A stretch of DNA of 28,338 nt from a virus. This document shows positions 2,161 through 19,797 of the stretch, in pieces. The notes under the pieces were generated by a model. That model did not search any database. It was not told the origin of the DNA and saw nothing but the letters and a program-made list of their open reading frames with translations. The DNA is taken from the IMG/VR virus record IMGVR_UViG_3300025896_000151, positions 1 through 28,338 of that record; one strand, written 5' to 3'. A program made the position numbers and the translations under genes. The first letter of the stretch is position 1, and the number at the start of each line of letters is the position of its first letter.

Positions 2161-3180
2161 TTAGAGGAAGATGGGGAAGGTGCCGGTGCGGCCGCGTTTG
2201 CTGTCGAGGAGGAAGAAGGTTTGTTGCGGGGGTTCGTAGCCGGCTTTGATCGCGAGCGAGAAGGGGCCGTAGCCGATGAGGGAGCCGTTCGAGATGAAGC
2301 GGGGGTTTTGCATGGCGGTGTGGTGGTGGCCGAAGACGTCGAGGTAAGGCGTCTGCTCACGGCCGCGATTCCACCCGGCGATCGCTTTCTCCATGGGGAT
2401 GGTGAGGCCGCCAATGCCGCCCGAATACATCACGTTATCGCCATGGTGGAATCGAATGACGCGGCCGCAGACGGTGAGGTTGAGGTGGTAGCCGTCGGCA
2501 ATGCCCCATTCGACCTCCGGCACGTCTTCTTTGAGGACGTGGTAGAGCATCCATTCGTAGGAGTTGGCGGCGCCGGTGGCGTGGCGGGGTTTCTTCGTGG
2601 TGCGGCCGTGGTTGCCGTAGCAGCAGGGGACGAGGATGCGTTTGAAGCCGCCTTCTTTGAGGAGGAGGCGGAGGCCGGCGACGATGCGGCGGCGGAGCCA
2701 GAGGACGGTTTGCGTGGGGCTGAGGCCGTTGGACTCCTGGAGTTCTTCATGGATGTAACCCGTCATCAGGTCGCCGAGGAGGGCGAGGACGAGGTGGTCG
2801 ATCTTGGTGCCGGCGCGTTCGATCTCCACGAGGCGGAGGATGGAGCGGAAGAATTTCTCGATGCGGGCTTCGGCGATTTCGAGGTTGAACTCGTTCAGGT
2901 GGTTTACCGTTTTGCCTTCGACGGTTTCTTCGACGTGCCAATCCGAAGCGATGGCGAAGGCGGTGGCTTCGGATTCTTCGGCGGTGAGGGGGGCGATGGG
3001 CGCGAGCGGGCCGAGGCGGGCATGACGGAGCGCAAGGGCGGTGTCGCGTTCCTTCGCGAGATCCGCGAGGAGGGCGGCTTGCGACGCGATGAGGCGGTCT
3101 TTTTCATGGAGGGCGGCGGCGTGGACTTTGTCGGCGGTCGCGCGTTGGACGGCGGTCCAGTTGGTTTTTTTCGTGGGCAT
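2161..3180 (-). CDS. Calcineurin-like metallophosphoesterase (339 aa)
   Basis: All the metal-binding blocks of the calcineurin-like superfamily are visible: D80-x-H82 (SDWHVE), G136-D137 (LLGDLM), G189-N190-H191 (YGNHGR), H245 (FHHGDN) and G284-H285-x-H287 (GHHHT). An N-terminal helical segment (about 15-70) precedes the catalytic domain. The enzyme should hydrolyse phosphomonoesters or diesters using two metal ions; the substrate is unknown. Stand-alone proteins of this type are frequent in phages of high-GC hosts. It lies between the lysis genes and the terminal winged-helix gene and is probably co-transcribed with both. Confidence 0.85.
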   Translation of the reverse strand: MPTKKTNWTAVQRATADKVHAAALHEKDRLIASQAALLADLAKERDTALALRHARLGPLAPIAPLTAEESEATAFAIASDWHVEETVEGKTVNHLNEFNLEIAEARIEKFFRSILRLVEIERAGTKIDHLVLALLGDLMTGYIHEELQESNGLSPTQTVLWLRRRIVAGLRLLLKEGGFKRILVPCCYGNHGRTTKKPRHATGAANSYEWMLYHVLKEDVPEVEWGIADGYHLNLTVCGRVIRFHHGDNVMYSGGIGGLTIPMEKAIAGWNRGREQTPYLDVFGHHHTAMQNPRFISNGSLIGYGPFSLAIKAGYEPPQQTFFLLDSKRGRTGTFPIFL

Positions 3181-3230: not shown

Positions 3231-3413
3231 TCAGTCGCGGCGGGCGCGGCGGCGGTGGAGGAGGTAGCCGGCGACGCTAAAGCCGATGGCGCTGAGGCTG
3301 GCGGCGATCTTGAGCCCCCACTCAATATTTTCCTGCCAGGGGGCGATGGCGGAGATGAGGCTGGCGCTGTAGAGGAGGCCGGGGGTGGTGTGCTCGGTGA
3401 GGCGGTCGATCAT
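3231..3413 (-). CDS. Small membrane protein of the lysis region (60 aa)
   Basis: A predicted amphipathic N-terminus (MIDRLTEHTTPGLLYSASLI) is followed by a transmembrane helix (about 33-51, LKIAASLSAIGFSVAGYLL) and a basic tail (HRRRARRD). The tail gives a positive-inside C-terminus. The start overlaps the stop of the 3410-3619 lipoprotein gene by 4 bp (ATGA). Size, topology and position suit a second holin, an antiholin, or another membrane accessory of lysis. There is no sequence proof of that role. Confidence 0.6.
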   Translation of the reverse strand: MIDRLTEHTTPGLLYSASLISAIAPWQENIEWGLKIAASLSAIGFSVAGYLLHRRRARRD

Positions 3414-3619
3414 GGGCGGGCGGCGAGGTCGGTCTCGAGGGCGGTGATGGTGGTGAGGGCGGCGCGCACCCAGGCGGGGGAGGCGCGGGCGACGGCGGGA
3501 AAATCCGGGTGCGCGATCAGGGCCGCGGTGGCGTCGGGGGAAGGGCGCGAGGCGGGCGTAGTGGCGCAGCCGCTACACGCGAGGAGGAGGCTGAGGAGAA
3601 GCGGGCGGGCGGAGGGCAT
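3410..3619 (-). CDS. Small lipoprotein, Rz1-like outer-membrane spanin candidate (69 aa)
   Basis: The start is placed at ATG 3619 (MPSARPLLLSLLLAC). This gives a lipoprotein signal peptide with a lipobox ending at Cys15 or Cys18 (LLLACSGC). The mature part begins with a Ser/Pro/Ala-rich linker and continues as a helix (HPDFPAVARASPAWVRAAL and onward). Its first 47 bp overlap the 3' end of the 3573-3764 gene in another frame, the nested arrangement typical of Rz/Rz1 spanin pairs. Spanin assignment is inferred from architecture and overlap. Confidence 0.6.
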   Translation of the reverse strand: MPSARPLLLSLLLACSGCATTPASRPSPDATAALIAHPDFPAVARASPAWVRAALTTITALETDLAARP

Positions 3620-3764
3620 CGGCGAGGGCGGCGGCGTTGCGGGCGTCTTTGGCGGTGCGGGCGGCTTCGGCCTGGCGGGCGCGGCGGGCGGCGGCGATCT
3701 GCTCGAGGAGCTTGGGGAGCGCGGAGAAGAGGGCCGCGAGCAGATTGAGGATCGCCGTGACCAT
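3573..3764 (-). CDS. Small membrane-anchored helical protein, Rz-like candidate (63 aa)
   Basis: A hydrophobic N-terminal segment (residues 2-18, VTAILNLLAALFSALPK) is followed by an Ala/Arg/Glu-rich helix likely to form a coiled coil (LEQIAAARRARQAEAARTAK) and a Pro-rich end. That is the layout of an inner-membrane spanin, although 63 residues is short for the class. Its 3' end overlaps the downstream lipoprotein gene by 47 bp. Only 3 bp separate its start from the holin stop. It could instead be an unrelated small membrane protein. Confidence 0.5.
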   Translation of the reverse strand: MVTAILNLLAALFSALPKLLEQIAAARRARQAEAARTAKDARNAAALADALRPPASPQPPPRV

Positions 3765-3767
3765 GGA

Positions 3768-3953
3768 TCAGGGGGTGGCGGGCGGTGGGGTTTTCTTCGA
3801 CCAAATGGACCAGACGGCGACGATGACGGTGCCGATGGCGGCAGTGCTCTCGGGGGAGAGGAGGCCGGTGATGTCGATGCCTTTGCCGGCGAGGTAGCCG
3901 GAGGCACAGGCGAGGAGGGTGCGGACGATGCCGGCGAGGGTCGAGGCGTTCAT
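3768..3953 (-). CDS. Putative holin, Pam3-gp28-like (61 aa)
   Basis: Two hydrophobic segments (about 6-24, LAGIVRTLLACASGYLAGK, and 37-51, TAAIGTVIVAVWSIW) flank a short Gly-Ile-Asp-Ile loop. The protein ends in a basic and Pro-rich tail (SKKTPPP). An Arg plus Gly-Tyr-x-x-Gly in helix 1 and a Gly...Trp-Ser-x-x-Ser-Lys end to helix 2 match what I know of the Pam3-gp28 family of small phage holins. It would oligomerise in the inner membrane to release or activate the lytic enzyme. Its position directly after a lipoprotein and a peptidase-like gene supports a lysis role. Confidence 0.7.
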   Translation of the reverse strand: MNASTLAGIVRTLLACASGYLAGKGIDITGLLSPESTAAIGTVIVAVWSIWSKKTPPPATP

Positions 3954-3954
3954 G

Positions 3955-4083
3955 TTAGGAGGGGGGAGGAGTTGCGGAGGCGGGAGAGGCGGGGGCGTAG
4001 TCGACGGGAGGCAGGGGCCGGGTGGCGCAGCCGGGGAGGGTGAGGGCGAGGAGGGCCGCGATCAGAAGCGGGCGAAGGTGCAT
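3955..4083 (-). CDS. Tiny proline-rich lipoprotein (42 aa)
   Basis: ATG at 4083-4081, TAA at 3957-3955. The signal peptide MHLRPLLIAALLALTLPGC has a lipobox ending at Cys19. The mature peptide is only about 24 residues and very Pro-rich (CATRPLPPVDYAPASPASAT and onward), the hallmark composition of Rz1-type outer-membrane spanins. Its start overlaps the end of the 4062-4460 gene by 22 bp and its stop lies 1 bp from the holin start. With 3410-3619 this makes two spanin-like lipoproteins in one lysis region. Confidence 0.6.
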   Translation of the reverse strand: MHLRPLLIAALLALTLPGCATRPLPPVDYAPASPASATPPPS

Positions 4084-4460
4084 GTGGCGATTTCGGCTGG
4101 GTTGAGCGGGAGCACGGCGCCGGTCTGAGGCTCAAGGAAGGTGACGCCGTGCTCGGTGATCGCGACGGCGATGGCGTGGGAGGCGCCGCTGGCGCGCGTG
4201 TAGAAAAACTCACCCACGGCGACGGCATCGTCGTCGTTGCCATTGCTCACGGCGTGGCAGTCTTGGGCGTGTTGGGCGTAGGCGCGGGCCCAGTTGTCGC
4301 AGTCGTTTTTGCGGGTGTAGCGGCCGACCTTGGCCCAGCGATCCTCGCGGAAGGACTCCCAGAACGGGCCTTGCAGCCAGGCGAGCGTGGGGCGCGCATA
4401 GGTATCATCCGCGAAGGGCGCGGTGACGATCACGAGGGCGTTGAGTTCGGCGCGCGTCAC
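4062..4460 (-). CDS. Papain-like/MOA-C-type cysteine peptidase domain protein, lytic candidate (132 aa)
   Basis: A compact domain with NDC54DNWARAY, SH95AIAV and a following FLE110PQTG strand. This Cys-His order and the EPQTG segment resemble phage proteins annotated as related to the C-terminal cysteine-peptidase domain of the MOA lectin. Cys54 and His95 would be catalytic, with Glu110 or Gln112 nearby. The start is a GTG at 4460; the next in-frame ATG lies too far in. It precedes the holin and spanin candidates, so it may be the endolysin of an otherwise endolysin-less region. The enzymatic role is inferred. Confidence 0.5.
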   Translation of the reverse strand: MTRAELNALVIVTAPFADDTYARPTLAWLQGPFWESFREDRWAKVGRYTRKNDCDNWARAYAQHAQDCHAVSNGNDDDAVAVGEFFYTRASGASHAIAVAITEHGVTFLEPQTGAVLPLNPAEIATCTFARF

Positions 4461-4470
4461 GGGCGGGTGG

Positions 4471-4830
4471 TTACGGGGTGGCCGGCGCGGCCTTGGCCGC
4501 TTGCGCGGCTTCGTAGGCGGCTTTGACCTCGACGAGCACTTTGGCGACGAGTTCGGCGCTGAGCGGGACGGTGAAGCCGGCGGAGGTGTCGAGGCGGGTG
4601 GAGATCACTTGCCCCGCGCTGTCGAGCAGCGTGACGGTGGGGTAGATCTGAAACGTGACCGAGCCATCGGCATTGATCGCGGCCTCGGCCTGGACGCGGC
4701 CGGTCGTGACAAGGGTGGTGACGCCGTTCTTCGTGGACGTGGCGAGGACGGCGGGCGAGGGCGCGTCGGCGGCGGAAGCGGCTGCGCAGAGCGCGACCGC
4801 GAGGATGAGGAGGGCAGTTAGTTTTTTCAT
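4471..4830 (-). CDS. Exported protein of unknown function (119 aa)
   Basis: The start at ATG 4830 yields a textbook Sec signal peptide (MKKLTALLILAVALCAAASA, then ADAPSP), cleaved after residue 20. The mature domain is mostly beta with Thr/Val alternation (GVTTLVTTGRVQAEAAINAD) and ends in a helical Ala/Lys-rich tail. Longer versions of the frame add residues typical of non-coding GC-rich DNA. It lies 13 bp downstream of the fibre-like gene, which also starts with a signal peptide. Exported proteins in a late operon suggest an envelope-acting function. No family recognised. Confidence 0.6.
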   Translation of the reverse strand: MKKLTALLILAVALCAAASAADAPSPAVLATSTKNGVTTLVTTGRVQAEAAINADGSVTFQIYPTVTLLDSAGQVISTRLDTSAGFTVPLSAELVAKVLVEVKAAYEAAQAAKAAPATP

Positions 4831-4843
4831 GGTTGGAAAATGC

Positions 4844-6514
4844 TTACCAAGTGGCGATGGCGACCCGCTTCCAAGTGTTGGTCGCGGTGCAAATATAAAT
4901 GTAGTTAGCATCCCATGACATCGTGCCGACGGTGCCCGCTGCCGTGGCGCTGGCTGGCGTGGCGCTGAGGGTGTGGATGACCGTGCCTCCCACCGTCACC
5001 GCGCCCCCCACATTCATCGCCCCGCCCACGCCCACGCCACCAGTCACGACGAGTGCGCCGTTGGTGGTGAGGGTGGAGGGGGTGGTGGAGGCTAGGGACA
5101 GATTGCCGGTATTGCCGAGGGTTGCCCACACGTCGCCGTTGGTCTTGAACTGCATCGCATTGGTTGAATGCGTGTAGATGATAGCGCCTGATGCTCCACC
5201 GCTGTCGGTGAACTGAATGTTTTGTGAGGTGGTGGTTCCGCTAGTCACGAAATCCAAGAAAGCGGCGCTTGTGCCGGTCGAAATGCTCGCGACGCCGCCC
5301 ACGGTCAGCGTCCCACCCGCATTGATATTCCCCCCACCAATCGCCACGTTGGTTGCGGCGGTGCCGTTGCCGACTGTGAGTGCGCCTACGGTGCTGGAGG
5401 AGGCGGAGGTGGTTGAGTTGAGGTCAATGTCTCCCGTCGTAACCGCAATGGTGAGTCCCTTTGCGGCAGCGTTAAAGAGCCGCGTGATAACGGAAGACCT
5501 AGCTTGCAGCGTCAGCGTCGTGGCGGAGTCCGCTATGAGGTAGCCGGGGGTTGTTCCTGCATAGTAGGGAGCAATGATACCGCCAGCCGCGTCGTTTACG
5601 CTGATTGCCACATTGCCGAAAGCTACCGGCGTGAATGATGCCCCGGCAGTGATCGCGCCCCCTACATTCATCGCCCCGCTCACGCCCACGCCGCCGCCAA
5701 CGATCAACGCGCCGGACGTGGTGTTCGTGGAGGCAGTGGTGATCGCAGATAGATTGAGCGATGCCGTTGCCGCCGATGTGCCTGTGAGCCTTAGCGGAAC
5801 ATAGCCGTCTGTTGCGTTTGTGATTCGGAACTCTCCGGTCGCCGCGCCGAAGGAGCTGATTTCATACTGCCTGCCTCCGGTTCCCGTGTTGCGCAGCGTG
5901 ATCTCGGGCCGGTCGCCTGAATTGGCGTTAGTAATTTCGATGCCGTAAAGACCGCGATTTCCACCGGAAGCGATGTAAACCGTGCTTTCAAGCCCCGTGA
6001 TTTGAACCGCGCGATTGAAGGTCGCGATTCCACTCCCCTGCCCCAGCACCAGACTCGCGCCCGTGCTGCCGCCGGTGAGGGTGAGGTCGGTGGTCGTCGG
6101 GCCGGTGACGCTCGTCGCAGTAGCGGCGCCGAGGATGGGGGTGGTGAGGGTGGGGCTGGTGAGGGTTTTGTTGGTAAGCGTTTCCGAGCCGGCGAGGGTC
6201 GCCAGGGTGCCGGTCGTCGGGAGGGTGACGGTGGTGTTGCCGCTGAGGGAGACGCCGAGATTGTAGGCGCCCACGGTCGTGACGTTGCCGCCGAGGGTGA
6301 TCGTTTTGCCGGTGTTCGCCACGCCGGTGCCGCCGCTCGCGCCGAGGAGGGTGCCGGTGGCGTTGCCGAGGGGCGTGACGAGGTTTGTCGGGCGGAAGAG
6401 GGCGCCGGTGGTGGGGTCGGCCAGGACGGGGGCCGGCTGGGCGGCGAGATGGCCGATGGGCGATTGGCAAAGGCCGATTGCGGCCACCAAAAGAAGGAGA
6501 CGGGGGAGGTTCAT
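4844..6514 (-). CDS. Fibre-like repetitive beta protein with N-terminal signal peptide (556 aa)
   Basis: Gly/Thr/Ala/Val-rich low-complexity beta repeats run through the whole protein. LTNKTLTSPTLTTP occurs at about 113-126, and a repeated TT(S/N)GALxVxGGVGVxGAMNVGG unit at about 255-277 and 493-515, with a looser copy at about 374-407. The C-terminal end (SWDANYIYICTATNTWKRVA) is of a type common at the ends of phage tail-fibre and appendage proteins. Unusually, it begins with a hydrophobic leader (MNLPRLLLLVAAIGLCQSPI...AA-QP) that looks like a Sec signal. It is probably a receptor-binding fibre or tip appendage, or else a secreted adhesin. Confidence 0.65.
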   Translation of the reverse strand: MNLPRLLLLVAAIGLCQSPIGHLAAQPAPVLADPTTGALFRPTNLVTPLGNATGTLLGASGGTGVANTGKTITLGGNVTTVGAYNLGVSLSGNTTVTLPTTGTLATLAGSETLTNKTLTSPTLTTPILGAATATSVTGPTTTDLTLTGGSTGASLVLGQGSGIATFNRAVQITGLESTVYIASGGNRGLYGIEITNANSGDRPEITLRNTGTGGRQYEISSFGAATGEFRITNATDGYVPLRLTGTSAATASLNLSAITTASTNTTSGALIVGGGVGVSGAMNVGGAITAGASFTPVAFGNVAISVNDAAGGIIAPYYAGTTPGYLIADSATTLTLQARSSVITRLFNAAAKGLTIAVTTGDIDLNSTTSASSSTVGALTVGNGTAATNVAIGGGNINAGGTLTVGGVASISTGTSAAFLDFVTSGTTTSQNIQFTDSGGASGAIIYTHSTNAMQFKTNGDVWATLGNTGNLSLASTTPSTLTTNGALVVTGGVGVGGAMNVGGAVTVGGTVIHTLSATPASATAAGTVGTMSWDANYIYICTATNTWKRVAIATW

Positions 6515-7321: not shown

Positions 7322-7389
7322 GTGCGCAGGGAGACCGGGGAGGGGTCACTCGTGCGCGGGGTGTCAATACGGGGGATGGCTCGGACGTT

Positions 7390-9059: not shown

Positions 9060-9965
9060 TCAGGTGGCGCGCACGAGGCGCACGGTGCGTTCGTAGATGT
9101 TGCCGAGGTAGCGGCGGCGTTCGCTGGGGAGGGCGACGAGGAAGGAGCCGGCGGCGACCATGCTTTCGTAATTCGCGGCGGTGGGGAGGGTGCCGGTGCT
9201 GAGGGTGGTGACTTCGAGGCCGGAGGCGCCGAGGGAGACCGAGACGGGGGAGAAAGCGGGGATCTGGGGGAGGTCGGTGTCCTGCGCCGCTTCGGAGCTG
9301 AGGGCGTAATCGTGCACGACGAAGGAGTCGACCGAGTAGGCGGTGGGTGTGCCGCGGCCGCGGTTGCCTTTGCGCACGGTGCCGGTGACGGAAGTGAAGA
9401 CGTTTTGACCAGGGAGGATATTGGAGACGGTGACGCTGGAGCCCGAAGAGGCGGCGACGGCGCTCGTGGTGAAGGTGAGTTGGTAATTCTGCGCGGAGCG
9501 GACGTAGTTCAGATTCAGGTAGATTTGATCGGCGGAGGAGATGCCGGTGGCGGTGGTGGTGAGGACGTAGTTGGCGGCTGAGGCGGCGATGGCGGTGACG
9601 GCGAAGGAATTGCCAAAGGTGGTGGCGGCGGTGAAGGCGGGGAAGCTGTAGGCATAGGTGCCGCCGGGCTCGGTCCACGAGGCGGGGACGGTGGCCCAGA
9701 GGCGAGTGAAGGATTGGAGGCCGCCGCGTTCATCGGTGAAATCGGTATCGTCGAGGAAGTAGGCGGTGGCGCTGCCGTAGGTGAGGGTGGTGTTGGCGGC
9801 GGGGCGGCTGTAGGAGGTGCGGTAGATTTTGAAGCGGGCGCGGATCAGGAGGTGGGTGGGCTCGCTGGCGCCGAGGGGATACTCGACGGTGTAGTCGCCG
9901 TCTTGGGTGGCGGTGGTGAAGGCGGGTTGGCCGGAGCCGAGTTTCTCGTAGATGGCGGAGGGCAT
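9060..9965 (-). CDS. Putative tail-tip/distal tail protein (301 aa)
   Basis: Beta-rich, Thr/Ser-heavy sequence in several segments. The N-terminus (GDYTVEYPLGASEPTHLLIR) suggests a beta-barrel. The C-terminal 60 residues are more charged (SFLVALPSERRRYLGNIYER). It directly follows the tape-measure gene in transcription order (9-bp gap), the place where siphophages encode the distal tail protein or a tip component. No motif is recognised, so the assignment rests on gene order. Confidence 0.5.
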   Translation of the reverse strand: MPSAIYEKLGSGQPAFTTATQDGDYTVEYPLGASEPTHLLIRARFKIYRTSYSRPAANTTLTYGSATAYFLDDTDFTDERGGLQSFTRLWATVPASWTEPGGTYAYSFPAFTAATTFGNSFAVTAIAASAANYVLTTTATGISSADQIYLNLNYVRSAQNYQLTFTTSAVAASSGSSVTVSNILPGQNVFTSVTGTVRKGNRGRGTPTAYSVDSFVVHDYALSSEAAQDTDLPQIPAFSPVSVSLGASGLEVTTLSTGTLPTAANYESMVAAGSFLVALPSERRRYLGNIYERTVRLVRAT

Positions 9966-9974
9966 GGGGAGAGA

Positions 9975-11288
9975 TCAGGGTTTGCCGGGTTTGGCGGGGG
10001 CGAGGTTTTTAGAGATGTCGGTGAGGGTCTTGTTCGCGGAAACGAGTTCGGATTTGAGGCCCATGGCATCGTCGCGGGCGACGGCGGAGGTGGAGGTAGC
10101 GACTTTGCCGCCGACGGTTTTGAAATCGCGGTTGGCGGCGGCGGTGAGGCTGGCGACGTAGGCGGGGGAGGCGCCGGAGCGGATGGCGGCATCGGCGCGG
10201 GCGGCGAAGCCGGCGCCGCGATCGGCGAGGCGTTCGCGTTCGGAGCGGCGGCCGACGGTGCCGCCGGCGAGGGTTTGGCCGACGGCGGAAAGGGTGGCGG
10301 AGCGTTGTTCGCGGGCTTGTTTGTCGAGAAGGAGGAGTTGCGCGCGGACGGCGTTTTGCTCGTTGCGGTTGGTGGTGGCTTCGGGGGACAAGCGTTTGTT
10401 TTTGGTGACCAGGACGTCGTATTCGCGGCGGAGGGCGGTGAGTTTGGCGAGGGCTTGGGCGCGTTCGCCGGCGTCTTTTAGCTCGAGGGCGGCTTGTTCG
10501 CGTTGGGCGAGGCCGGTGCGTTTGATGCCTTCGACTTGGTCGTTGAGGAGGCGGTTGGCGCGGGCTTCTTCCTGGTTGAGGGTGGCGAGGGCGTTGCGGT
10601 TTTCCTGCAGCACGGAGGGCATGGCGCCGCGGGTTTTCAGGATCTCGTATTCCGTCTCGATGGCTTCGCGGCGGGCTTGGACGATGCGGCCTTGGGCGAA
10701 GTTCTTGGACTCGGCGTCGGCGATTTGTTTGGCGAGGGCGGCTTGGCGCTGGAGGTCGCCGGTGCGGCGGGAGTCGGCGAGGGCGACCATCTGCGCGGTG
10801 GTGGCCATCTCGGCTTGTTTGAGGATGAGGGCGTCGAGACCGGCTTCGGCTTCTTTGATCGCGGTGCGGGTTTCGGCGTTGATGAATCTCAGGGGGTTGG
10901 CGTTGAGGTCGGCGACGAGTTGGCGCTGGAGGGAGATTTCGGTGTTGAGGTCGTTGACTTGGCGGACTTGGAGTTCGAGTTCGCGGCGGGGGCCGCCGAG
11001 GGCACTGAGCCAGCGGTTGGTGTTGTCGGAGAGGGAGCCGGTGAGGCCGACGAGGGCGCGGGCGCGTTCGGCGGCGGCTTCGAAGGGGGCGACGATCATG
11101 TCGGTGATCGATTGGACGGAGCCGATGCCGATGCCTTGGAAGATGCCTTTGATGGCGTCTTTGAGGCCGAGTTTCTTTTGGATCTGCGCGCCGGCGGTGG
11201 CGGCCACGGATTGCAGGCCGACGAAGGCTTTGCTGAGAGCGGAGGTATCGGCGCCGATTTTGAAGCGGATTTCGGAGGAGGCGGCCAT
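9975..11288 (-). CDS. Tape-measure-like tail protein (437 aa)
   Basis: The N-terminal start, IRFKIGADTSALSKAFVGLQ, is a classic opening for tape-measure proteins. Residues about 44-60 (DAIKGIFQGIGIGSVQS) form an amphipathic segment. A long, almost continuous helical and coiled-coil region follows (about 95-340), rich in Ala, Glu, Gln, Arg and Leu. At 437 residues it predicts a short tail by the usual roughly 0.15 nm per residue rule. Position after the chaperone-position gene and before the tip genes matches siphophage order. Its ATG lies 1 bp from the upstream stop. Confidence 0.75.
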   Translation of the reverse strand: MAASSEIRFKIGADTSALSKAFVGLQSVAATAGAQIQKKLGLKDAIKGIFQGIGIGSVQSITDMIVAPFEAAAERARALVGLTGSLSDNTNRWLSALGGPRRELELQVRQVNDLNTEISLQRQLVADLNANPLRFINAETRTAIKEAEAGLDALILKQAEMATTAQMVALADSRRTGDLQRQAALAKQIADAESKNFAQGRIVQARREAIETEYEILKTRGAMPSVLQENRNALATLNQEEARANRLLNDQVEGIKRTGLAQREQAALELKDAGERAQALAKLTALRREYDVLVTKNKRLSPEATTNRNEQNAVRAQLLLLDKQAREQRSATLSAVGQTLAGGTVGRRSERERLADRGAGFAARADAAIRSGASPAYVASLTAAANRDFKTVGGKVATSTSAVARDDAMGLKSELVSANKTLTDISKNLAPAKPGKP

Positions 11289-11289
11289 G

Positions 11290-12105
11290 TTAGGAGGGGG
11301 AGGGTTCGGAATTTTTGACCACGGATGGCACGGATTGAATGGATGAAGGCACGGGGATTGAATCCGTGTGATCCGTGTGATCCGTGGTGGTTTGGGTCTG
11401 GCGGGCGGCGGCGTTGAGGGTGTTGACGCGGTCCATGCAGCGGTTGCGGAGGGAGTCGATTTCGGTGTAGTGCTTTTCCTCGGACGTGCGGGCGGCGATC
11501 GTGCGCTGATACTGGGCGAGGCGGGGGAGGGGGGTGTGCGCGAGGAGGGCGCCGCTCATGGGGTCGAGGTGGCCGATGTCGCTGGCGACTTGGACGAGGA
11601 GGCCGCTGAGGAAATAGGTGGGGGGTTCGGGGGCGAAGGCGTCGGTGGTGGGGGTGGGGGACTCGGCGGGGGTGGTGTCGGCGCCGGGGAAGTCGGCGAA
11701 CATTTTGGCGACGTAGGCGAGGAGGGCGGTGATTTGGTCGTCGTGGGGGATGCGGGAGATCCGGCGGAGGAAGCGGGTGCGGCGCCAGAGGTTGGCGAGG
11801 GTGGCTTCGTGGGTGTTGAGGGCGGCGAGTTGCCAGAGGAGGGCGGCGGAATCGAGGGGGGTGATCTCGGCGAGGGGGGCGCCGCAGACGTAGGGGTTTT
11901 CGAGGGCGTCGAGGTGGAGGAGGTCGGCGGGGGTCATCTGCCGGAGTTCTTCGCCGCAGACGGTGTGGGTGATCTCGAGGAAGGCTTCGGTGCGGCGTTC
12001 GGTGGTGGCGCGGCGTTGGGCAGCGACTTGGGGGGCGAATTCGCGTTGCCACACTTCCTCGAAGGTCACGGGGGCGAGAGGGGGAGCGGGAGTGGAAGGG
12101 TCCAC
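11290..12105 (-). CDS. Tail-assembly-chaperone-position protein with a repeat-encoded C-terminus (271 aa)
   Basis: Mostly helical (residues 14-130, with WQREFAPQVAAQRRATTERR and LLWQLAALNTHEATLANLWR). It lies between the tail-tube and tape-measure genes, where siphophages encode tail-assembly chaperones; the function is inferred from that position. The start is a GTG at 12105, since no ATG fits. The last 35 or so residues (from about 237, TQTTTDHTDHTDSIPVP and onward) are translated from repeat copy R2, and the frame stops 21 bp beyond it. Either the repeat inserted in frame near the original stop, or it replaced the native C-terminus. I see no slippery site. Confidence 0.55.
   Translation of the reverse strand: MDPSTPAPPLAPVTFEEVWQREFAPQVAAQRRATTERRTEAFLEITHTVCGEELRQMTPADLLHLDALENPYVCGAPLAEITPLDSAALLWQLAALNTHEATLANLWRRTRFLRRISRIPHDDQITALLAYVAKMFADFPGADTTPAESPTPTTDAFAPEPPTYFLSGLLVQVASDIGHLDPMSGALLAHTPLPRLAQYQRTIAARTSEEKHYTEIDSLRNRCMDRVNTLNAAARQTQTTTDHTDHTDSIPVPSSIQSVPSVVKNSEPSPS
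11312..11393 (-). repeat. REP-like palindrome, copy R2, inside a coding sequence
   Basis: Arms ACCACGGAT (11318-11326) and ATCCGTGGT (11380-11388). It lies within the 3' end of the 11290-12105 reading frame and is translated as part of its C-terminal tail. Confidence 0.85.
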
Positions 12106-14761: not shown

Positions 14762-15493
14762 TCAGCGGAGGGCGCAGTGGGCGAGGTCGATGGGGCTGAT
14801 TTCGGGGGGGCGGCTCGTGCCATCCAGGCGGAGGGTGCTGAATTCGGCGCGGAGGGTTTGACGGACGTGGATCTGCGCGATTTCGAGGCGGGCGAGGAGG
14901 AGGCTCTCGGGGTGGAAGGGGCACTGGTAGCTGCCGAGGAGTTCGGGGATCTTCGGGTAGATGTCGAAATACGCGCGCGCGGCGGCGGGGCCCATAATGG
15001 CGAAGCGGTCGTTGAGGCCGCCGAAGCGGCCCCACCAGGGGGTGAGGCAGAAATCATCCAAGACGATTCCCGCGCATTCGGAGTCGAAGGAGTGGAAAAA
15101 AAGGTCGGGGCGGAGGCGGATGATGGTGTCGATTTGCAGGCTGAGGGTTTCGCGGTGGCCGCAGAAGTTTTCCCACACTTGGGCCTGATACCAGTGTTGG
15201 AGGAGGAGGCGGTGAGCGGGGGCGGCGTTGGCGTAGGGGGCTTGGTGGTAGGCGGCCGAAAGGGCGGGGGTGAGGTCGGGGGTGAGGTCGGGGTCGGTGA
15301 GTTGCTGGAGGTGGACGCGGGCGGCGCCGTAATCGGCGATGAGGGGCGCGAGGATTTGGGCGGCGTCGGGTTGGGCTTGGACGGTCAGGAAGAAATGCGG
15401 GTCGGCGAAGTGGCGGAGGACGTGCCAGCGTTGGGTGGGGTAGCAGCGGGCGAAGGTGCGGAGTTGGCCGGAGTAGAGAATTGCTGTGCTCAT
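14762..15493 (-). CDS. Putative glycosyltransferase-like protein, SGQLRT type (243 aa)
   Basis: The N-terminus (TAILYSGQLRTFARCYPTQR) and an internal Arg-x-Arg-Pro-Asp-Leu motif (IIRLRPDLFF, about 124-133), followed by NDRFAIM, are the marks of a protein group found in surface-polysaccharide loci and large phages. These are usually thought to be glycosyltransferases. A central helical region (about 80-120) carries Trp and Tyr residues. It lies between repeat copies R5 and R6, at the downstream end of the cassette. Transferase activity is inferred; donor and acceptor are unknown. Confidence 0.6.
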   Translation of the reverse strand: MSTAILYSGQLRTFARCYPTQRWHVLRHFADPHFFLTVQAQPDAAQILAPLIADYGAARVHLQQLTDPDLTPDLTPALSAAYHQAPYANAAPAHRLLLQHWYQAQVWENFCGHRETLSLQIDTIIRLRPDLFFHSFDSECAGIVLDDFCLTPWWGRFGGLNDRFAIMGPAAARAYFDIYPKIPELLGSYQCPFHPESLLLARLEIAQIHVRQTLRAEFSTLRLDGTSRPPEISPIDLAHCALR

Positions 15494-15511
15494 GGAAAAA
15501 ATGAATCGGAG

Positions 15512-15590
15512 TTTTTGACCACGGATGGCACGGATCTAACGGATCAAGGCACGGGGATTGTATCCGTGAAATCGGTGTAATCCGTGGTTA
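15512..15590 (-). repeat. REP-like palindrome, copy R6
   Basis: Arms ACCACGGAT (15518-15526) and ATCCGTGGT (15580-15588). The last bases of the repeat form the TAA stop (15590-15588) of the E1-alpha-like gene. Confidence 0.85.
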
Positions 15591-16262
15591 ATTCTGGGCG
15601 GATTTCAGGCGGGCGATCGCGGCGGGGGCGAAGGTGACGCTGCCGGGGGGGAGGCCGGCGCCGCCGTGGGGATAGGTGGGGGTGTAGTGGTAACGCTCGA
15701 CGCAGGCGAAGTGGTCGAGGGGGCCGGAAACGGGATACTCGGTGCGGCGGCGTTCGCTCTTGGTAGTGTCGACTTGGCGGGCGTTGTCTTCGATGATGAA
15801 GGTGATGGGGAGATCGTTGGCTTCGGCGAAGAGGGCGGCTTCATAGTAGTGGCCTTCTTCTTCGGCGCCGTCGCCGAGGAAGCAGTAGACGTGGGGAACG
15901 GTGGCGGGGTCGGATGTGGCGCAGGGGGCGGCGTTACGAATTTCCCAGGCGACGCCGGCGGCGATGCAGCAGGTGCCGGCTAGGATGGAGGAGGTGAGGA
16001 AGTTGTGCTCGCGGCTGTAGATGAACATGCTGCGGCCGGCGAGGATCTCGGCCTCGAGGTGGTCGGCGGGAATGCCTTTGAGCAGGGCGTGGTAGTGGTT
16101 GCGGTGCGTCGAAAAAACCCAGTCTTGCGGGCGGATGCGGGAGAAGATGTCGAGGAGTTGCGTCTCGTTGCCGCCGCTGAGGTGGATGAGGCAGGGGAGC
16201 GCGCCGGCGGCGAAGTGGTCGCGGATGCGGGTTTCAAAGGCGATGAGGTCTTGGGAAGTCAT
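15588..16262 (-). CDS. Thiamine-diphosphate dehydrogenase E1 alpha-like / transketolase N-terminal subunit (224 aa)
   Basis: The ThDP-binding motif is intact: G130-D131-G132 (GDGAEEEGHYYEA) followed 28 residues later by Asn160 (FIIEDN). Upstream blocks DWVFSTHRNHYHALLKG (about 47-63) and EILAGRSMF (72-80) match the E1-alpha pattern of an Asp-x-Val, Arg-x-His, Gly and Gly-x-(S/D)-x-H region. The start at ATG 16262 (MTSQDLIAFE) is chosen because the upstream extension is repeat-derived. The protein is about 100 residues shorter than pyruvate/acetoin E1 alpha, mostly at the C-terminus. It would cleave or transfer a ketol/acyl unit together with the 17478-18002 beta subunit. Substrate unknown. 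Confidence 0.85.
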   Translation of the reverse strand: MTSQDLIAFETRIRDHFAAGALPCLIHLSGGNETQLLDIFSRIRPQDWVFSTHRNHYHALLKGIPADHLEAEILAGRSMFIYSREHNFLTSSILAGTCCIAAGVAWEIRNAAPCATSDPATVPHVYCFLGDGAEEEGHYYEAALFAEANDLPITFIIEDNARQVDTTKSERRRTEYPVSGPLDHFACVERYHYTPTYPHGGAGLPPGSVTFAPAAIARLKSAQN

Positions 16263-16271
16263 GGGTGCGGA

Positions 16272-16350
16272 ATTTTTGACCACGGATGGCACGGATCTAA
16301 CGGATCAAGGCAGCGGGATAGTATCCGTGAAAGCGGTGTAATCCGGGGTT
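16272..16350 (-). repeat. REP-like palindrome, copy R7
   Basis: Arms ACCACGGAT (16279-16287) and the slightly decayed ATCCGGGGT (16341-16349). It overlaps the TAA stop (16351-16349) of the dehydrogenase gene and lies 10 bp from the E1-alpha start. Confidence 0.85.
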
Positions 16351-17443
16351 AAATGGTTGCGGGCATTTCGATCAGGATGCGGCCGGCGGAGCCGGAGCGG
16401 ACGAGGTCGAGGGCGTGATTGATTTCGTCCAGGCGGAGGCGGTGCGTGACGAGGCGCGTGCTGTAGATGTCTCGCTCGGCGAGGACGCGGAGATAGCGGG
16501 GGATATCGAGGTCGGGGCGGAAGCCTCCCCCTTGGGTGGCGCGAATGCTTTTGCCTTCGCCTTCGAAGAGGTGGCGGGCGTTGGAAATGCAGACGGGTTT
16601 TTGCGGGGCGTGTTGGCCGATCAGCACATACCGGCCGGAGGGGGCGAGGCGTTCGAGGGCGGTCTCGGTGGCGGTGGTGGCGCCGGCGGTGTCGAGGATG
16701 AGGTCGTAGGTGCCGGAGAGTTTTTCCGTGGCGAGGTTTACGAACTGCGCGCCGGCGAGGCGGGCGGGGGCGCGTTTGCTTTCGTGAATATCGCAGGCGC
16801 AGACGGCGGCGGGGGCGGCGAGGTTGAGCGCGGAGAGCATCGCGAGGCCGAGGCCGCCGCAGCCGAGGACGAGGACCGACTCCCCCCAGCGGGTGGCTTC
16901 GCTTTCGATGGTGGCGAGGGCCGTAGAGAGGCTGCAACCGAGGAGGGCGCAGAGTTCGGGGTCGGTGTCGGGGGGGACGGGGGTCAGGCGATTCTCACTA
17001 CAAATTGAATGGGTCGCTAGCGTGGTTACGCGGCCGCTGGTGAAGGTTTGGGGAAGAGGGAGAGAGGGGGAGAGGGGGAGAGTGGGAGAGGGTTCGATCT
17101 CTCCGTCTCTCTGTCTCTCTTTCTCTCCTTCTCCGGCGATCAGGCGGTAGCGGGGGATGGGAGATTCGAGGCCGGCGGCTTTGCGCCAGTGCATCACGAC
17201 TTTGTCGCCGGGGCGGACGCGGGTGACGGCGGGGCCGATGTCTTCCACGATGCCGCAGCCTTCGTGGCCCATGAGGTGCGGGAGGGGGCCGCCTTTTTCG
17301 CCGCGGATCTCCTGGAGCTGCGCGCCGCAGAGGCCCGACACGAGCACGCGGACGAGGACTTGGCCGAACTCGAGGGGGCCGGCGGGGGCGATTTCCGCGA
17401 GGGTGAGGGGGGCGTTGTGCGCGGTGAGGAGGGCGGCGAGCAT
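16349..17443 (-). CDS. Zinc-type medium-chain alcohol/polyol dehydrogenase with an in-frame low-complexity insertion (364 aa)
   Basis: MDR-family layout: Cys39 (SGLCGAQ), His60-Glu61 (GHEGCGIVEDIG) and Cys170 (LLGCSLSTAL) are the catalytic zinc ligands. A Rossmann motif lies at G194-x-G196-G197-x-G199 (VLGCGGLGL), with Asp-x-x-x-Ser-Lys about 20 residues on. The four-Cys structural-zinc lobe is absent. Residues about 104-132 (GEGEKERQRDGEIEPSPTLP and onward) are translated from a purine/pyrimidine palindrome and interrupt the catalytic domain between otherwise ordinary segments. The insertion keeps frame, so the enzyme may still fold. It lies between the alpha and beta E1 genes, suggesting one oxidoreduction step on the E1 product or substrate. 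Confidence 0.85.
   Translation of the reverse strand: MLAALLTAHNAPLTLAEIAPAGPLEFGQVLVRVLVSGLCGAQLQEIRGEKGGPLPHLMGHEGCGIVEDIGPAVTRVRPGDKVVMHWRKAAGLESPIPRYRLIAGEGEKERQRDGEIEPSPTLPLSPSLPLPQTFTSGRVTTLATHSICSENRLTPVPPDTDPELCALLGCSLSTALATIESEATRWGESVLVLGCGGLGLAMLSALNLAAPAAVCACDIHESKRAPARLAGAQFVNLATEKLSGTYDLILDTAGATTATETALERLAPSGRYVLIGQHAPQKPVCISNARHLFEGEGKSIRATQGGGFRPDLDIPRYLRVLAERDIYSTRLVTHRLRLDEINHALDLVRSGSAGRILIEMPATI
17050..17134. repeat. Imperfect purine/pyrimidine palindrome inside the dehydrogenase gene
   Basis: A G/A run (17050-17092) is followed, after a short GTTCGAT centre, by a C/T run (17097-17134), together a long imperfect hairpin. It encodes the odd Glu/Pro/Ser/Leu insert in the dehydrogenase. 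Related purine runs occur at 12106-12142 and 13261-13295. Confidence 0.75.
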
Positions 17444-17459
17444 GTTTCGGGAATCCGGT

Positions 17460-17477
17460 GCAGGGGCGGGCCCCTGC
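17460..17477. repeat. Perfect GC hairpin after the E1-beta stop
   Basis: GCAGGGGC (17460-17467), loop GG, GCCCCTGC (17470-17477), directly abutting the stop codon at 17480-17478. No U-tract follows. A REP-like element or mRNA-end stabiliser is likely. Confidence 0.65.
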
Positions 17478-18002
17478 TCACCAGAGGTCTTTGTATTCCA
17501 CGACGGCGCAGGGTTGGCCGTTTTCGGTGGCTTGGGCGGCGAGGGCGTAGGTGCTCGCGATTTGGTCGGCGTGGTGGAGGGTGAGGACGGGGAACGATAC
17601 GAGGGTGCGGAGGGCGGCGGTGACGTCTTGGGTGTGCGTCGCGCCGGTGAAGAGGGGTTTTTCGGTATTGCCGACGGTGATGCGGAGGATCACGCCGGGG
17701 AGGAATTGGCCGCGGCTGAGGGTGGCGAGTTTGTCGAGGTGGTTCACGATCGCATCCATCGCGTTGAGGACGAAGTCGGCGCGTTCGAAGTAGACGACGG
17801 GTTTGCGTCCGCGGAGGGCGGCGCCGATGGCGAGGCCGGTCATGAGGTTTTCGGCGACGGGGGTTTCGAGGAGTTGGGCGGCGGGCACGCCGGCGAGGGT
17901 GCCGGCGGCGCGGCCGTGGGTGAGGCCGTAGCCGATGAAGAGGCGCGCGGGATCGGCGGCGAGGGCCGTCATGGCGGCGGTGAGTTGGGTTTTGTAATTC
18001 AT
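17478..18002 (-). CDS. E1 beta-like / transketolase pyrimidine-domain subunit lacking the C-terminal domain (174 aa)
   Basis: The block LLETPVAENLMTGLAIGAAL contains Glu51, equivalent to the catalytic glutamate that activates the ThDP aminopyrimidine in E1 beta subunits. It is followed by the expected GRKPVVYFERADFVLNAMDA region and an RITVG segment (about 107-111). The protein ends at residue 174 (VVEYKDLW), where normal E1 beta (about 325 aa) continues into a transketolase C-terminal domain. So only the pyrimidine-binding domain is present. With the short alpha subunit it should form a minimal heteromeric ThDP enzyme rather than part of a 2-oxoacid dehydrogenase complex; no E2 or E3 gene is present. 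Confidence 0.85.
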   Translation of the reverse strand: MNYKTQLTAAMTALAADPARLFIGYGLTHGRAAGTLAGVPAAQLLETPVAENLMTGLAIGAALRGRKPVVYFERADFVLNAMDAIVNHLDKLATLSRGQFLPGVILRITVGNTEKPLFTGATHTQDVTAALRTLVSFPVLTLHHADQIASTYALAAQATENGQPCAVVEYKDLW

Positions 18003-18017
18003 CGGAAGGAGCGGAAA

Positions 18018-18866
18018 TCAGAGGAGGCCGCGGTCTTTCAGGAGTTCGGGGACGAGGCTGAGGTGGTTCGCGTGCAGCGTGTGCTCGGGGAGGAGGTCCA
18101 CGCGTTCCGTATCGAGGAGGAGGAGGCGGAGTTTGATCGTGTCCGCGTTCCAGATGTTGAAGGTGGGCCAGATGGGGCCGGTAGGGACGCCGATGATGGC
18201 GTCGATGTGATCGGTGCTGAGGCGGCCGATGTCCGTGACGCTCGAGCCGAGGTCGAGGGTGCAGAGGGCGTCTTTGGTGCGGCTGGGGGCGGTGGTGTAG
18301 ACGCAGTGGCCGGCGGCGTGCAGGAGGGCGACGATGCGGTCGAAGCCGTCGTGGGAGAAGGATTGGAACTGGCCGGAATTCGGGGCGCTGTTGATGACGA
18401 GGATGCCGCGCATCCCGGTGTAGGCGGTGGTGGCGGGGGCGAGCGCGGGGTAATCGAAGAGGAGGGCGCGGGGATCGGCGCCGGCGAAGGGGCAGGCGAG
18501 GCCGAGGGCGCGGCTGAGGTTGGCGAAGTGGCGGTGGTAGATGGCCACGAAGTCGTGGCGGTCGGGCTGGCTGTAAAACCAGCCGGCGGCGCCGAGCCAG
18601 GTGTCGAGGGGGCCGTAGCTGTGGCAGGAGGGGAGGAGGCTGAGCGCGGAGAGACTGAGGTTGGGGAGATCGGCAGTGAGGGGGGCGAGTTGGGTGAGGT
18701 ATTCGGCGCGGGAATGGTGGAGGAAGTGAATCTCTGGATACGACTTTGCGAGGGCGCGGAGGTAGTGGAGGGTGAGGAGGTTGTCGCCGAGGTGGTAGGC
18801 GTTGAACGTGGCGATGACGCGAGCCACCGGGGGAGCGTCGAGGGGGAGGCGGTGTTGTGCGATCAT
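18018..18866 (-). CDS. GT-B/heptosyltransferase-like glycosyltransferase (282 aa)
   Basis: The N-terminal Rossmann segment HLGDNLLTLHYLRALAKSYP (about 25-44) resembles the GD-x-L-x-x-x-P start of family-9-type transferases. The second half has a Rossmann-like strand (GILVINSAPNSGQ), a helix with DRIVALLHAAGHCVY, and IIGVPTGPIWPTFNIWNA near residues 223-240, the usual donor-site region of such enzymes. It lacks obvious DxD. Located 15 bp upstream of the E1-beta gene in the same operon. Donor sugar unknown; it may also be a nucleotide-sugar-independent relative. Confidence 0.65.
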   Translation of the reverse strand: MIAQHRLPLDAPPVARVIATFNAYHLGDNLLTLHYLRALAKSYPEIHFLHHSRAEYLTQLAPLTADLPNLSLSALSLLPSCHSYGPLDTWLGAAGWFYSQPDRHDFVAIYHRHFANLSRALGLACPFAGADPRALLFDYPALAPATTAYTGMRGILVINSAPNSGQFQSFSHDGFDRIVALLHAAGHCVYTTAPSRTKDALCTLDLGSSVTDIGRLSTDHIDAIIGVPTGPIWPTFNIWNADTIKLRLLLLDTERVDLLPEHTLHANHLSLVPELLKDRGLL

Positions 18867-18894
18867 CGGAGTAAAACCGAGAGAACGAGAACGA

Positions 18895-19797
18895 TTACGA
18901 GGAACGAGTAACGAGGGCGGCGTGCTTGGAGAGGGCCGCGGAGAGCTTGGCGCGGTCGACGGCGGGGTTGCCGGACTCGATCATCGCGACGGTGGCGTCG
19001 ACCAGCTCGGAGATCGCGGGGGGAAAGAGGAGGCGGCCGAGGTGGCGGAGTTTAATTTGGGTATCGCCCACGACTTTGCCGCCCAGCTCGCGCCAATACT
19101 CGCAGACCATCCAGTCTTCGCTTTGCCAGTTTTTCAGGCCGTCTTTGGGGTCGATGTCGCCGTGCACGCCGCTCGTGAAGTAGGCGTAAAACTTTTCGCC
19201 GGGCCAAGGGGTGTTGGGTGCGCAGCGGTAGGGTTTGACGTTGGGGTGGGTGCGGAGAGTGGTGAGCACGCTGCGATTCCACGCCATGCAGCCGGTGGCG
19301 CCGTGGAGGAGGGCGATCAGGCCGGTCTCGGGGTCGGGTTTGGCGCCGGGGATGATGTTCGCCACCCAGGTGGGCAGGAGGCACTTCATCGCGTAAAACC
19401 CGCAGACGAAGGGATGGCCTTTTTGGAGGTGCACGTAGAGGCGCATGATGTCGCTCGGGTCCATGGGGATATCGGCGTCCCACCAGAGGCAGAAGGTGGT
19501 GGTGTTTTCGCGCTCCCACATATTCGCGAGGACATTACGCGCGCGGTCGATGTGGGAATCGTTGGGCAGGCTGAGGCGGTGCGAGATGAGCGACATGAGC
19601 TCGACGGAGCCATCGGGCTGGCGAAACCAGGCGCGGGCTTCGCGGCAGGCGGTGAGGCTGTTGTGGTAATACTCCGTGAGGGAGTAATCGTAGCAGGGGG
19701 TGAGGATCGTGATGCGGTCGCGGGCATCGAAGATCTGGGCGCCGGCGGGGGGGGTGAGGGCGGGCTGAGCCGCCGCGGGGAGTGCGGGAGTGTTCAT
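18895..19797 (-). CDS. GT-A-fold glycosyltransferase (300 aa)
   Basis: Strand one is ITILTPCYDYSLTEYYHNSL (29-48). A DSHIDRARN motif follows at about 80-88, then the metal/nucleotide-sugar DxD at D107-A-D109 (WWDADIPM), GATGCMAWNR (166-175), E227-D228 (SEDW, general base region) and His252 (RHLG). These are the ordered features of GT-A transferases of the type found in phages and polysaccharide loci. It is the first cassette gene transcribed after the capsid terminator and repeat R8, and has TTGACA 20 bp upstream of its ATG. It could glycosylate the virion or host glycans. Confidence 0.8.
   Translation of the reverse strand: MNTPALPAAAQPALTPPAGAQIFDARDRITILTPCYDYSLTEYYHNSLTACREARAWFRQPDGSVELMSLISHRLSLPNDSHIDRARNVLANMWERENTTTFCLWWDADIPMDPSDIMRLYVHLQKGHPFVCGFYAMKCLLPTWVANIIPGAKPDPETGLIALLHGATGCMAWNRSVLTTLRTHPNVKPYRCAPNTPWPGEKFYAYFTSGVHGDIDPKDGLKNWQSEDWMVCEYWRELGGKVVGDTQIKLRHLGRLLFPPAISELVDATVAMIESGNPAVDRAKLSAALSKHAALVTRSS

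Follow-up and report, generated by a model that had tools for sequence, protein, structure and literature searches.

A predicted MOA-type cysteine protease and an overlapping micro-lipoprotein gene in the endolysin position of an environmental phage lysis cassette

Lysis of Gram-negative cells by phages is described in terms of a holin, an endolysin and a spanin. In cyanophages with a holin of the Phage_holin_10 family (Pam3 gp28), the gene directly before the holin can encode a canonical enzyme: it is a Peptidase_M15_4 in Pseudanabaena phage Pan4 and an Amidase_2 in Microcystis phage Mel-JY03, these being the two records inspected among the three cyanophage records with a holin homologue. In phage lambda, the spanin pair Rz/Rz1 consists of a small N-anchored membrane protein and a lipoprotein encoded in the +1 frame by an overlapping gene. 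Here, the lysis region at positions 3231-4460 of the IMG/VR virus record IMGVR_UViG_3300025896_000151 is compared with these and related systems; the record in its whole length (28,338 bases, linear, possibly a fragment) is referred to as the window. The region carries a holin of the cyanophage type, and the place upstream of it is taken by a predicted papain-like cysteine protease of the type of the Marasmius oreades agglutinin (MOA), together with a micro-lipoprotein, lipo1. The enzyme slot beside a recognised holin is thereby occupied by a protease of a class in which the members studied are toxins of fungi.

The closest described counterpart of the enzyme is the protease domain of MOA and PSL1a (Agglutinin_C), with which the phage protein shares the fold over its whole length, the Cys-His-Glu residues and the glutamine of the EPQ loop. 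It differs in that its 132 amino acids (aa) correspond to the protease part of MOA alone, standing by itself without the N-terminal beta-trefoil lectin domain, and in that it occurs in phage lysis regions. LapG (Peptidase_C93) is a calcium-dependent protease of related fold with a weak overall match; it differs in being, according to excerpts of the LapG literature, a periplasmic protease under the control of LapD. PeiW and PeiP (family C71) are lysis enzymes with a papain/transglutaminase-type fold, as described in an excerpt of PMC10318531, but they act on archaeal cell walls and their structural match to the phage protease is weak.

The reading favoured here, with a probability of about 0.5, is that the cassette consists of an ordinary part (holin, spanin pair and small membrane protein) and of a two-gene module, protease and lipo1, which occupies the endolysin position and would provide an envelope protease that the holin releases and calcium activates. 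The genes, the fold, the catalytic residues, the gene coupling and the absence of the module from one related contig are computed results, and they are described before the mechanism is considered.

When the protease is compared with Pfam as a single sequence, only sub-threshold matches to papain-fold families are obtained (Gln_amidase, E = 0.0078; Peptidase_C58, E = 0.032; Agglutinin_C, E = 0.13), and for this reason a family profile and a structural model were used. The AlphaFold2 model, built from a six-member family alignment, has a mean predicted local distance difference test score of 86.9. In a Foldseek search with this model, structures of MOA and PSL fill the first ten places, with a best E value of 1.5e-6 and a TM-score of 0.77 by query length. 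Superposition with VIA-align on residues 158-293 of MOA gives Z = 15.1 and a root-mean-square deviation (rmsd) of 2.7 with 125 of 132 residues aligned, while the next family, LapG, reaches Z = 6.0 (rmsd 3.6, 95 aligned) and PeiP only Z = 4.2 (rmsd 4.0, 90 aligned). The family sequence profile, compared with the sequences of the PDB, recovers MOA (E = 1.2e-6) and PSL (E = 3e-4), and no other match below 0.4. Model and profile, which are independent of each other, both point to MOA; the first-pass annotation of this region had called the peptidase papain/MOA-like. The peptidase is predicted from model and profile to be a stand-alone MOA-type cysteine protease domain; it is called MOA-type, and not a curated member of Agglutinin_C, because its Pfam score lies below the family cut-off though the profile matches MOA strongly. 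Of six family members, one also matches PF06035, on the side of LapG and Peptidase_C93 (E = 0.0036). Among the viral predicted structures in BFVD, A0A886NIR5 and A0A0C5KAM4 have a similar predicted fold (Foldseek E = 9.0e-5 and 9.5e-5, TM-scores by query 0.62 and 0.65), yet only 14 and 13% identity to the phage protease, so that distant viral relatives of the fold appear to exist outside this phage group.

In the hidden Markov model alignment, C54, H95, E110 and Q112 of the phage protein correspond to Cys215, His257, Glu274 and Gln276 of MOA, the last three of which are catalytic or substrate-binding according to an excerpt of PMC8244254. The D-C-D, H-A and E-P-Q positions are invariant in all eight family members, and the position of the oxyanion residue Trp208 of MOA is, by eye, Tyr or Trp in the phage family. 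MOA requires Ca2+ or Mn2+, and its metal site A superimposes on the calcium site of LapG (same excerpt); by analogy, the phage enzyme may be calcium-dependent as well. A hydropathy scan finds no N-terminal hydrophobic segment in the window protease.

Relatives of the protease are present in six further viral contigs, one of which (IMGVR 3300032331_004470, here G002, also L004) was first reached through its holin and not through the protease. A pattern scan returned 14 stretches, which are two known contigs and 12 that were inspected; the latter contained a single relative, L053 (E = 8e-11), and two further scans gave no additions. With six of the eight family members as tblastn queries, no protease relatives were found in 50,697 isolated-phage records, and a scan of genome contigs for cellular relatives matched 20 stretches, none of which was confirmed.

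The second member of the proposed module is linked to the first by position. In the window, a gene for a 42-aa lipoprotein overlaps the 3' end of the protease gene, and in each of the six further contigs a lipoprotein frame of 33-38 aa lies 3' of the protease, with a short ending of proline and aromatic residues, e.g., LPPVEY or FPIEY, while L021 has RPPRVRF at this place. Consider the 369 genes called in eight contigs, which are the seven with the protease (window included) and G003 (L005, IMGVR 3300017766_004787). When coupling is defined as a lipoprotein frame of 25-60 aa starting at most 60 nucleotides (nt) from the stop codon of the preceding gene, a lipoprotein of 33-42 aa follows the protease in 7/7 contigs and any other gene in 1 of 362 cases. 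The overlap is exactly -22 nt in six of the seven; in the exception, G006 (L019), lipo1 starts 6 nt past the stop. Ribosome sites (GGAG) precede the lipo1 start in L016, L017 and L021.

The six genes follow one another in the same direction on the minus strand, and with spacings of -22, +1, +3, -47 and -4 nt from peptidase to small membrane protein they overlap or abut within 1.2 kb, in agreement with what had been noticed at first. With the upstream neighbour included, the features are:

4471..4830, minus strand: protein of 119 aa from the gene that flanks the protease gene upstream; Sec-type signal, judged by eye and from hydropathy
4062..4460, minus strand: predicted MOA-type papain-like cysteine protease, 132 aa, GTG start; C54, H95, E110, Q112
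3955..4083, minus strand: lipo1, micro-lipoprotein of 42 aa, lipobox Cys19, mature part 24 aa, proline-rich, with LPPVDY; 22-nt overlap with the protease gene
3768..3953, minus strand: holin of the Pam3 gp28 family (PF23987), 61 aa, two hydrophobic segments
3573..3764, minus strand: Rz-like inner-membrane spanin (i-spanin) candidate, 63 aa, with an N-terminal hydrophobic segment, a charged stretch and a proline-rich tail
3410..3619, minus strand: lipo2, candidate outer-membrane spanin (o-spanin) of Rz1-like type, 69 aa; lipobox Cys18; in the +1 frame relative to the Rz-like gene, with which it shares 47 nt
3231..3413, minus strand: small membrane protein, 60 aa, with a C-terminal hydrophobic segment and an Arg-rich end (hydropathy)

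All six genes have full-length homologues in G002, each with a nonsynonymous substitution rate below the synonymous one (dN < dS), and because of this they are regarded as real genes and not as chance frames, although dN/dS for the Rz-like gene is 0.83, from few changes.

The holin had been recognised earlier from its letters, and the assignment holds: it scores 30.3 bits against a Phage_holin_10 cut-off of 27, has hydrophobic segments at residues 6 and 31, and has homologues in three cyanophage records, with 49% identity to those of Pan4 and the Microcystis phage. For the Rz-like peptide, described at first sight as containing a nested lipoprotein gene, the overlapping Rz/Rz1-like pair stands and the nesting does not, since lipo2 shares 47 nt with it and extends beyond. 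The Rz-like protein has an N-terminal membrane segment (Kyte-Doolittle mean 1.94 for residues 1-17 in a simple scan), and lipo2 has a deviant lipobox, CSGC (SSGC in G003). Their periplasmic parts, counted by hand, are about 46 and 52 residues, together about 98, and the shortest periplasmic total among surveyed spanins is 62 residues; the same survey warns of frequent failures to find o-spanin genes and of variation in lipoboxes (PMC6139136). The match of lipo2 to the Rz-like spanin PHROG 456 is weak (E = 0.0039) and a homology search with it recovered G002 alone, while its dN/dS is 0.23 against G002 and 0.29 against G003. From its architecture, the pair is likely to be an overlapped two-component spanin of the Rz/Rz1 type. 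It differs from lambda in that the i-spanin candidate is very short, that lipo2 is not proline-rich as lambda Rz1 is, and that another lipoprotein, lipo1, is coupled to the enzyme gene. That the small membrane protein might be a second holin or an antiholin is a guess.

A home-made six-frame scan for lipoproteins gave three candidates in the 28 kb: lipo1, lipo2 and a frame antisense to a structural gene. The two lipoproteins expected in the lysis region were recovered in this way, with their lipobox cysteines; only lipo2 has spanin architecture, however, and the original description of both as Rz1-like is kept for lipo2, since lipo1 goes with the peptidase gene. In an automated scan near the cassette, one lipoprotein besides lipo1 was found in each of G001, G002, G006 and the window and two in G005, while lipo1 is alone in G004 and in the short G007; G003 has lipo2, and in L053 two lipoproteins lie upstream of the protease. 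Two lipoproteins recur, in other words, in 5/7 of the protease contigs, and in the window a division of labour is likely, with one lipoprotein for the spanin and one for the protease.

The comparison with G002 and G003 sets the module apart from the other cassette genes. Between the window and G002, a block of lower identity comprises the protease (72%), lipo1 (78%) and the upstream secreted protein (78%), while identities are higher for the Rz-like protein (86%), the holin (92%), lipo2 (93%), the small membrane protein (98%) and a PHROG-284 exonuclease-like protein at 2161-3180 (99%). It is possible that the divergent block, including the gene upstream of the module, has been exchanged separately. 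In G003, the holin (85% identity to that of the window), the Rz-like gene and lipo2 are conserved, but its 26.5 kb contain no match to the protease, lipo1 is absent too, and the holin starts directly after the upstream secreted-protein gene. The place of the small membrane protein is held there by a dissimilar protein (25% identity, dN > dS), which is probably an unrelated replacement. Near the end of this contig, at about 26.4-26.5 kb, there is a long C/G homopolymer run, probably an artefact of sequencing or assembly.

No classical endolysin had been visible in the first-pass annotation, and a scan of 38 frames of the window, with the small lysis genes searched separately, also found no peptidoglycan hydrolase family, in a record that may be a fragment. 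The peptidase itself matches no known peptidoglycan hydrolase family in Pfam at E values up to 1. In the relatives, with genes from a home-made caller, proteins of about 85-400 aa were scanned, longer ones and those crossing a retrieval border being dropped. The proteins scanned, out of those listed, were 14/66 for G002 and G003, 47/56 for G001, 41/53 for G005, 24/34 for G004 (plus one frame added by hand, which encodes a transglycosylase of the SLT type), 21/26 for G006 and 9/13 for G007. The remainder in G002 and G003 are homologous, by eye, to scanned window genes or too long, and the protease itself was left out in G001, G004, G006 and G007. In these partial sets, no canonical lysin family is found in six of the seven protease-bearing contigs, the exception being G004. 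In L053, a protein encoded at 11229-11696, upstream of the MOA-type protease and two lipoproteins, has no Pfam match at E values up to 0.1; presumably it resembles permuted NlpC/P60-like enzymes.

What the module would do can be outlined as a proposal, in which calcium dependence, target, role of lipo1 and order of events are the parts that we infer. Lacking a signal, the protease would be synthesised in the cytoplasm and would be idle there for want of calcium, as may be expected from MOA and LapG. When the holin forms its lesion, the protease would be admitted to the periplasm, where calcium is plentiful, and it would then cut protein or peptide targets in the envelope. Lipo1, on the inner face of the outer membrane, might dock, place or restrain the protease, and the spanin pair would then finish the outer membrane. 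The stronger form of the proposal is tentative and at present rather doubtful: that in a group of environmental phages a two-gene module, not described before, takes the place of the endolysin or acts in addition to it, and that lysis proceeds by cleavage of envelope proteins through a calcium-switched enzyme posted to the outer membrane by lipo1. If the protease does drive lysis, calcium entry would be a built-in timer and the envelope proteins a new point of attack, and the module hints at an unrecognised variant of the way in which phages open Gram-negative cells. The novelty is confined to the enzyme class and its partner, the holin, the spanins and the slot for an enzyme being of the standard kind. 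Among the papers listed by the literature searches, none joined MOA with phage lysis, which is weak evidence of absence. Lipoproteins of 33-42 residues are easily missed by ordinary gene callers, and a protease gene with an overlapping micro-lipoprotein gene is a signature that can be searched for in phages seemingly without an endolysin.

Several observations weigh against the proposal. The Agglutinin_C score of the protease is 13.1 bits, below the gathering cut-off of 26.8, and for the presumed metal site the comparison with MOA covered the invariant D-C-D motif. The N-terminus of the L021 protease is weakly hydrophobic (1.38). The length and lipobox limits of the coupling test were fixed after examples had been seen, and so not blind; in the later, held-out relative L053, the automated test found no lipoprotein between -60 and +120 nt. 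An overlapping frame at 12539-12727 of L053 reads by eye as a lipoprotein ending in SKPLIYEK, but the lipobox Cys comes 44 codons after the sole ATG of the frame, and the GTG codons preceding this Cys are located inside the hydrophobic stretch, so that it gives weak support for the coupling. The lipo1 start in the window has no clear ribosome site, and the link between lipo1 and the protease could be one of translational coupling only. G004 carries the SLT transglycosylase besides the protease: its protein is above the Pfam SLT cut-off and matches EmtA with E = 3.7e-4, under EmtA's own cut-off, and its gene (L016 4206-4610, minus strand, equal to G004 9610-10014, plus strand) is convergent with the protease cassette and has, by eye, a signal-peptide-like N-terminus. 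The module, finally, is not essential to the cassette, as G003 keeps holin, Rz-like gene and lipo2 without it.

The alternative that the protease is itself a true endolysin, close to what the first-pass annotation had considered, has a real though minor share of the probability. It would then cut peptides of the host wall, in the way that PeiW and PeiP attack pseudomurein, and lipo1 would be incidental. This reading accounts for the position beside the holin, for the missing signal peptide of the window protein and for the lack of a canonical lysin family in most of the scanned contigs, and PeiW and PeiP are a precedent for wall lysis by this general fold class (excerpt of PMC10318531). MOA and LapG, however, cut ordinary proteins, the structural match to PeiP is weak, an SLT enzyme coexists with the protease in G004, and the protease is missing from G003.

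It is unlikely that the module serves no lysis function but modifies the envelope late in infection, through superinfection exclusion, LapG-like shedding of receptors or release of progeny from surface adhesins. LapG, the next relative in fold, does cleave surface adhesins (excerpts of PMC4694147 and PMC4933386), the cassette of G003 dispenses with the module, and among the upstream neighbours, tail-fibre-like or secreted proteins are frequent. On the other hand, without an N-terminal hydrophobic segment, the window protease would reach the periplasm by way of the holin or lysis only. As to these neighbours, a tail-fibre-like or Ig-like protein is encoded upstream of the protease region in the window (4844-6514, minus strand), in L002 (2685-5990), in L017 (794-2950) and in L021 (2624-2962), and in several of these phages it opens, by eye, with a Sec-type signal, which is odd on a virion fibre.

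Lipo1 could instead be a second o-spanin, the real Rz1, pairing with the Rz-like or another inner-membrane protein, and its overlap with the protease gene mere packing. It is indeed a proline-rich lipoprotein in a lysis region, and when compared with spanin families, as had been suggested, it gives weak matches to Rz-like spanins in PHROG (E = 0.079, 0.35 and 0.37). But the gene that lipo1 overlaps is that of the protease and not one for an i-spanin, lipo1 tracks the protease across contigs whose neighbouring membrane genes differ, its mature part is just 15-24 aa (from lengths and Cys positions), and in G003 it is lost jointly with the protease although the Rz-like gene and lipo2 stay. Because lipo1 is coupled to the peptidase gene and not to an i-spanin gene, the plain second Rz1 is disfavoured and quite improbable, and a partner of the protease is the better reading of lipo1. 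That the small lipoprotein frames arise by chance, as the GC content of about 65% and the common long antisense frames of the window might allow, is rejected as highly implausible by the coupling test (7/7 against 1/362, also in contigs of 56-63% GC), by dN < dS (dN/dS of 0.46 for lipo1 against G002), by the ribosome sites in three relatives and by the six-frame lipoprotein scan.

The host is suggested to belong to Verrucomicrobiota, by sequence similarity of the portal to that of Verrucomicrobia phage P8625 (29% identity over 85% of its length, in two records of the only phage matched) and by gene order: in P8625 the tail-fibre region is followed by a gene annotated as a metallophosphoesterase, and in the window the cassette is followed by the PHROG-284 exonuclease-like gene. 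No lysis genes are named in the P8625 paper (the words lysis, lysin, holin and lysozyme are absent), and four proteins of the phage, gp25-gp28, show no Pfam lysin.

Ten places in the window, mostly in intergenic gaps (positions 7358, 11283, 12660, 14118, 14667, 15483, 16244, 19814, 24080 and 24556), carry a repeat that is about 120-130 nt long and has inverted ends, ACCACGGAT...ATCCGTGGT; a dispersed repeat of this kind is unusual for a phage. A 30-mer from it, used in a search for the host, has no exact match in genome contigs, and a shared 18-mer is found seven times in the window and seven times in G002. At 14762-19797 on the minus strand, with the coat gene on one side and the tail genes on the other, the window encodes a dehydrogenase E1, a transketolase pyrimidine domain, a zinc alcohol dehydrogenase and glycosyltransferase-like proteins, a set of metabolic and sugar genes; G002 and G003 contain genes that are alike in order and length.

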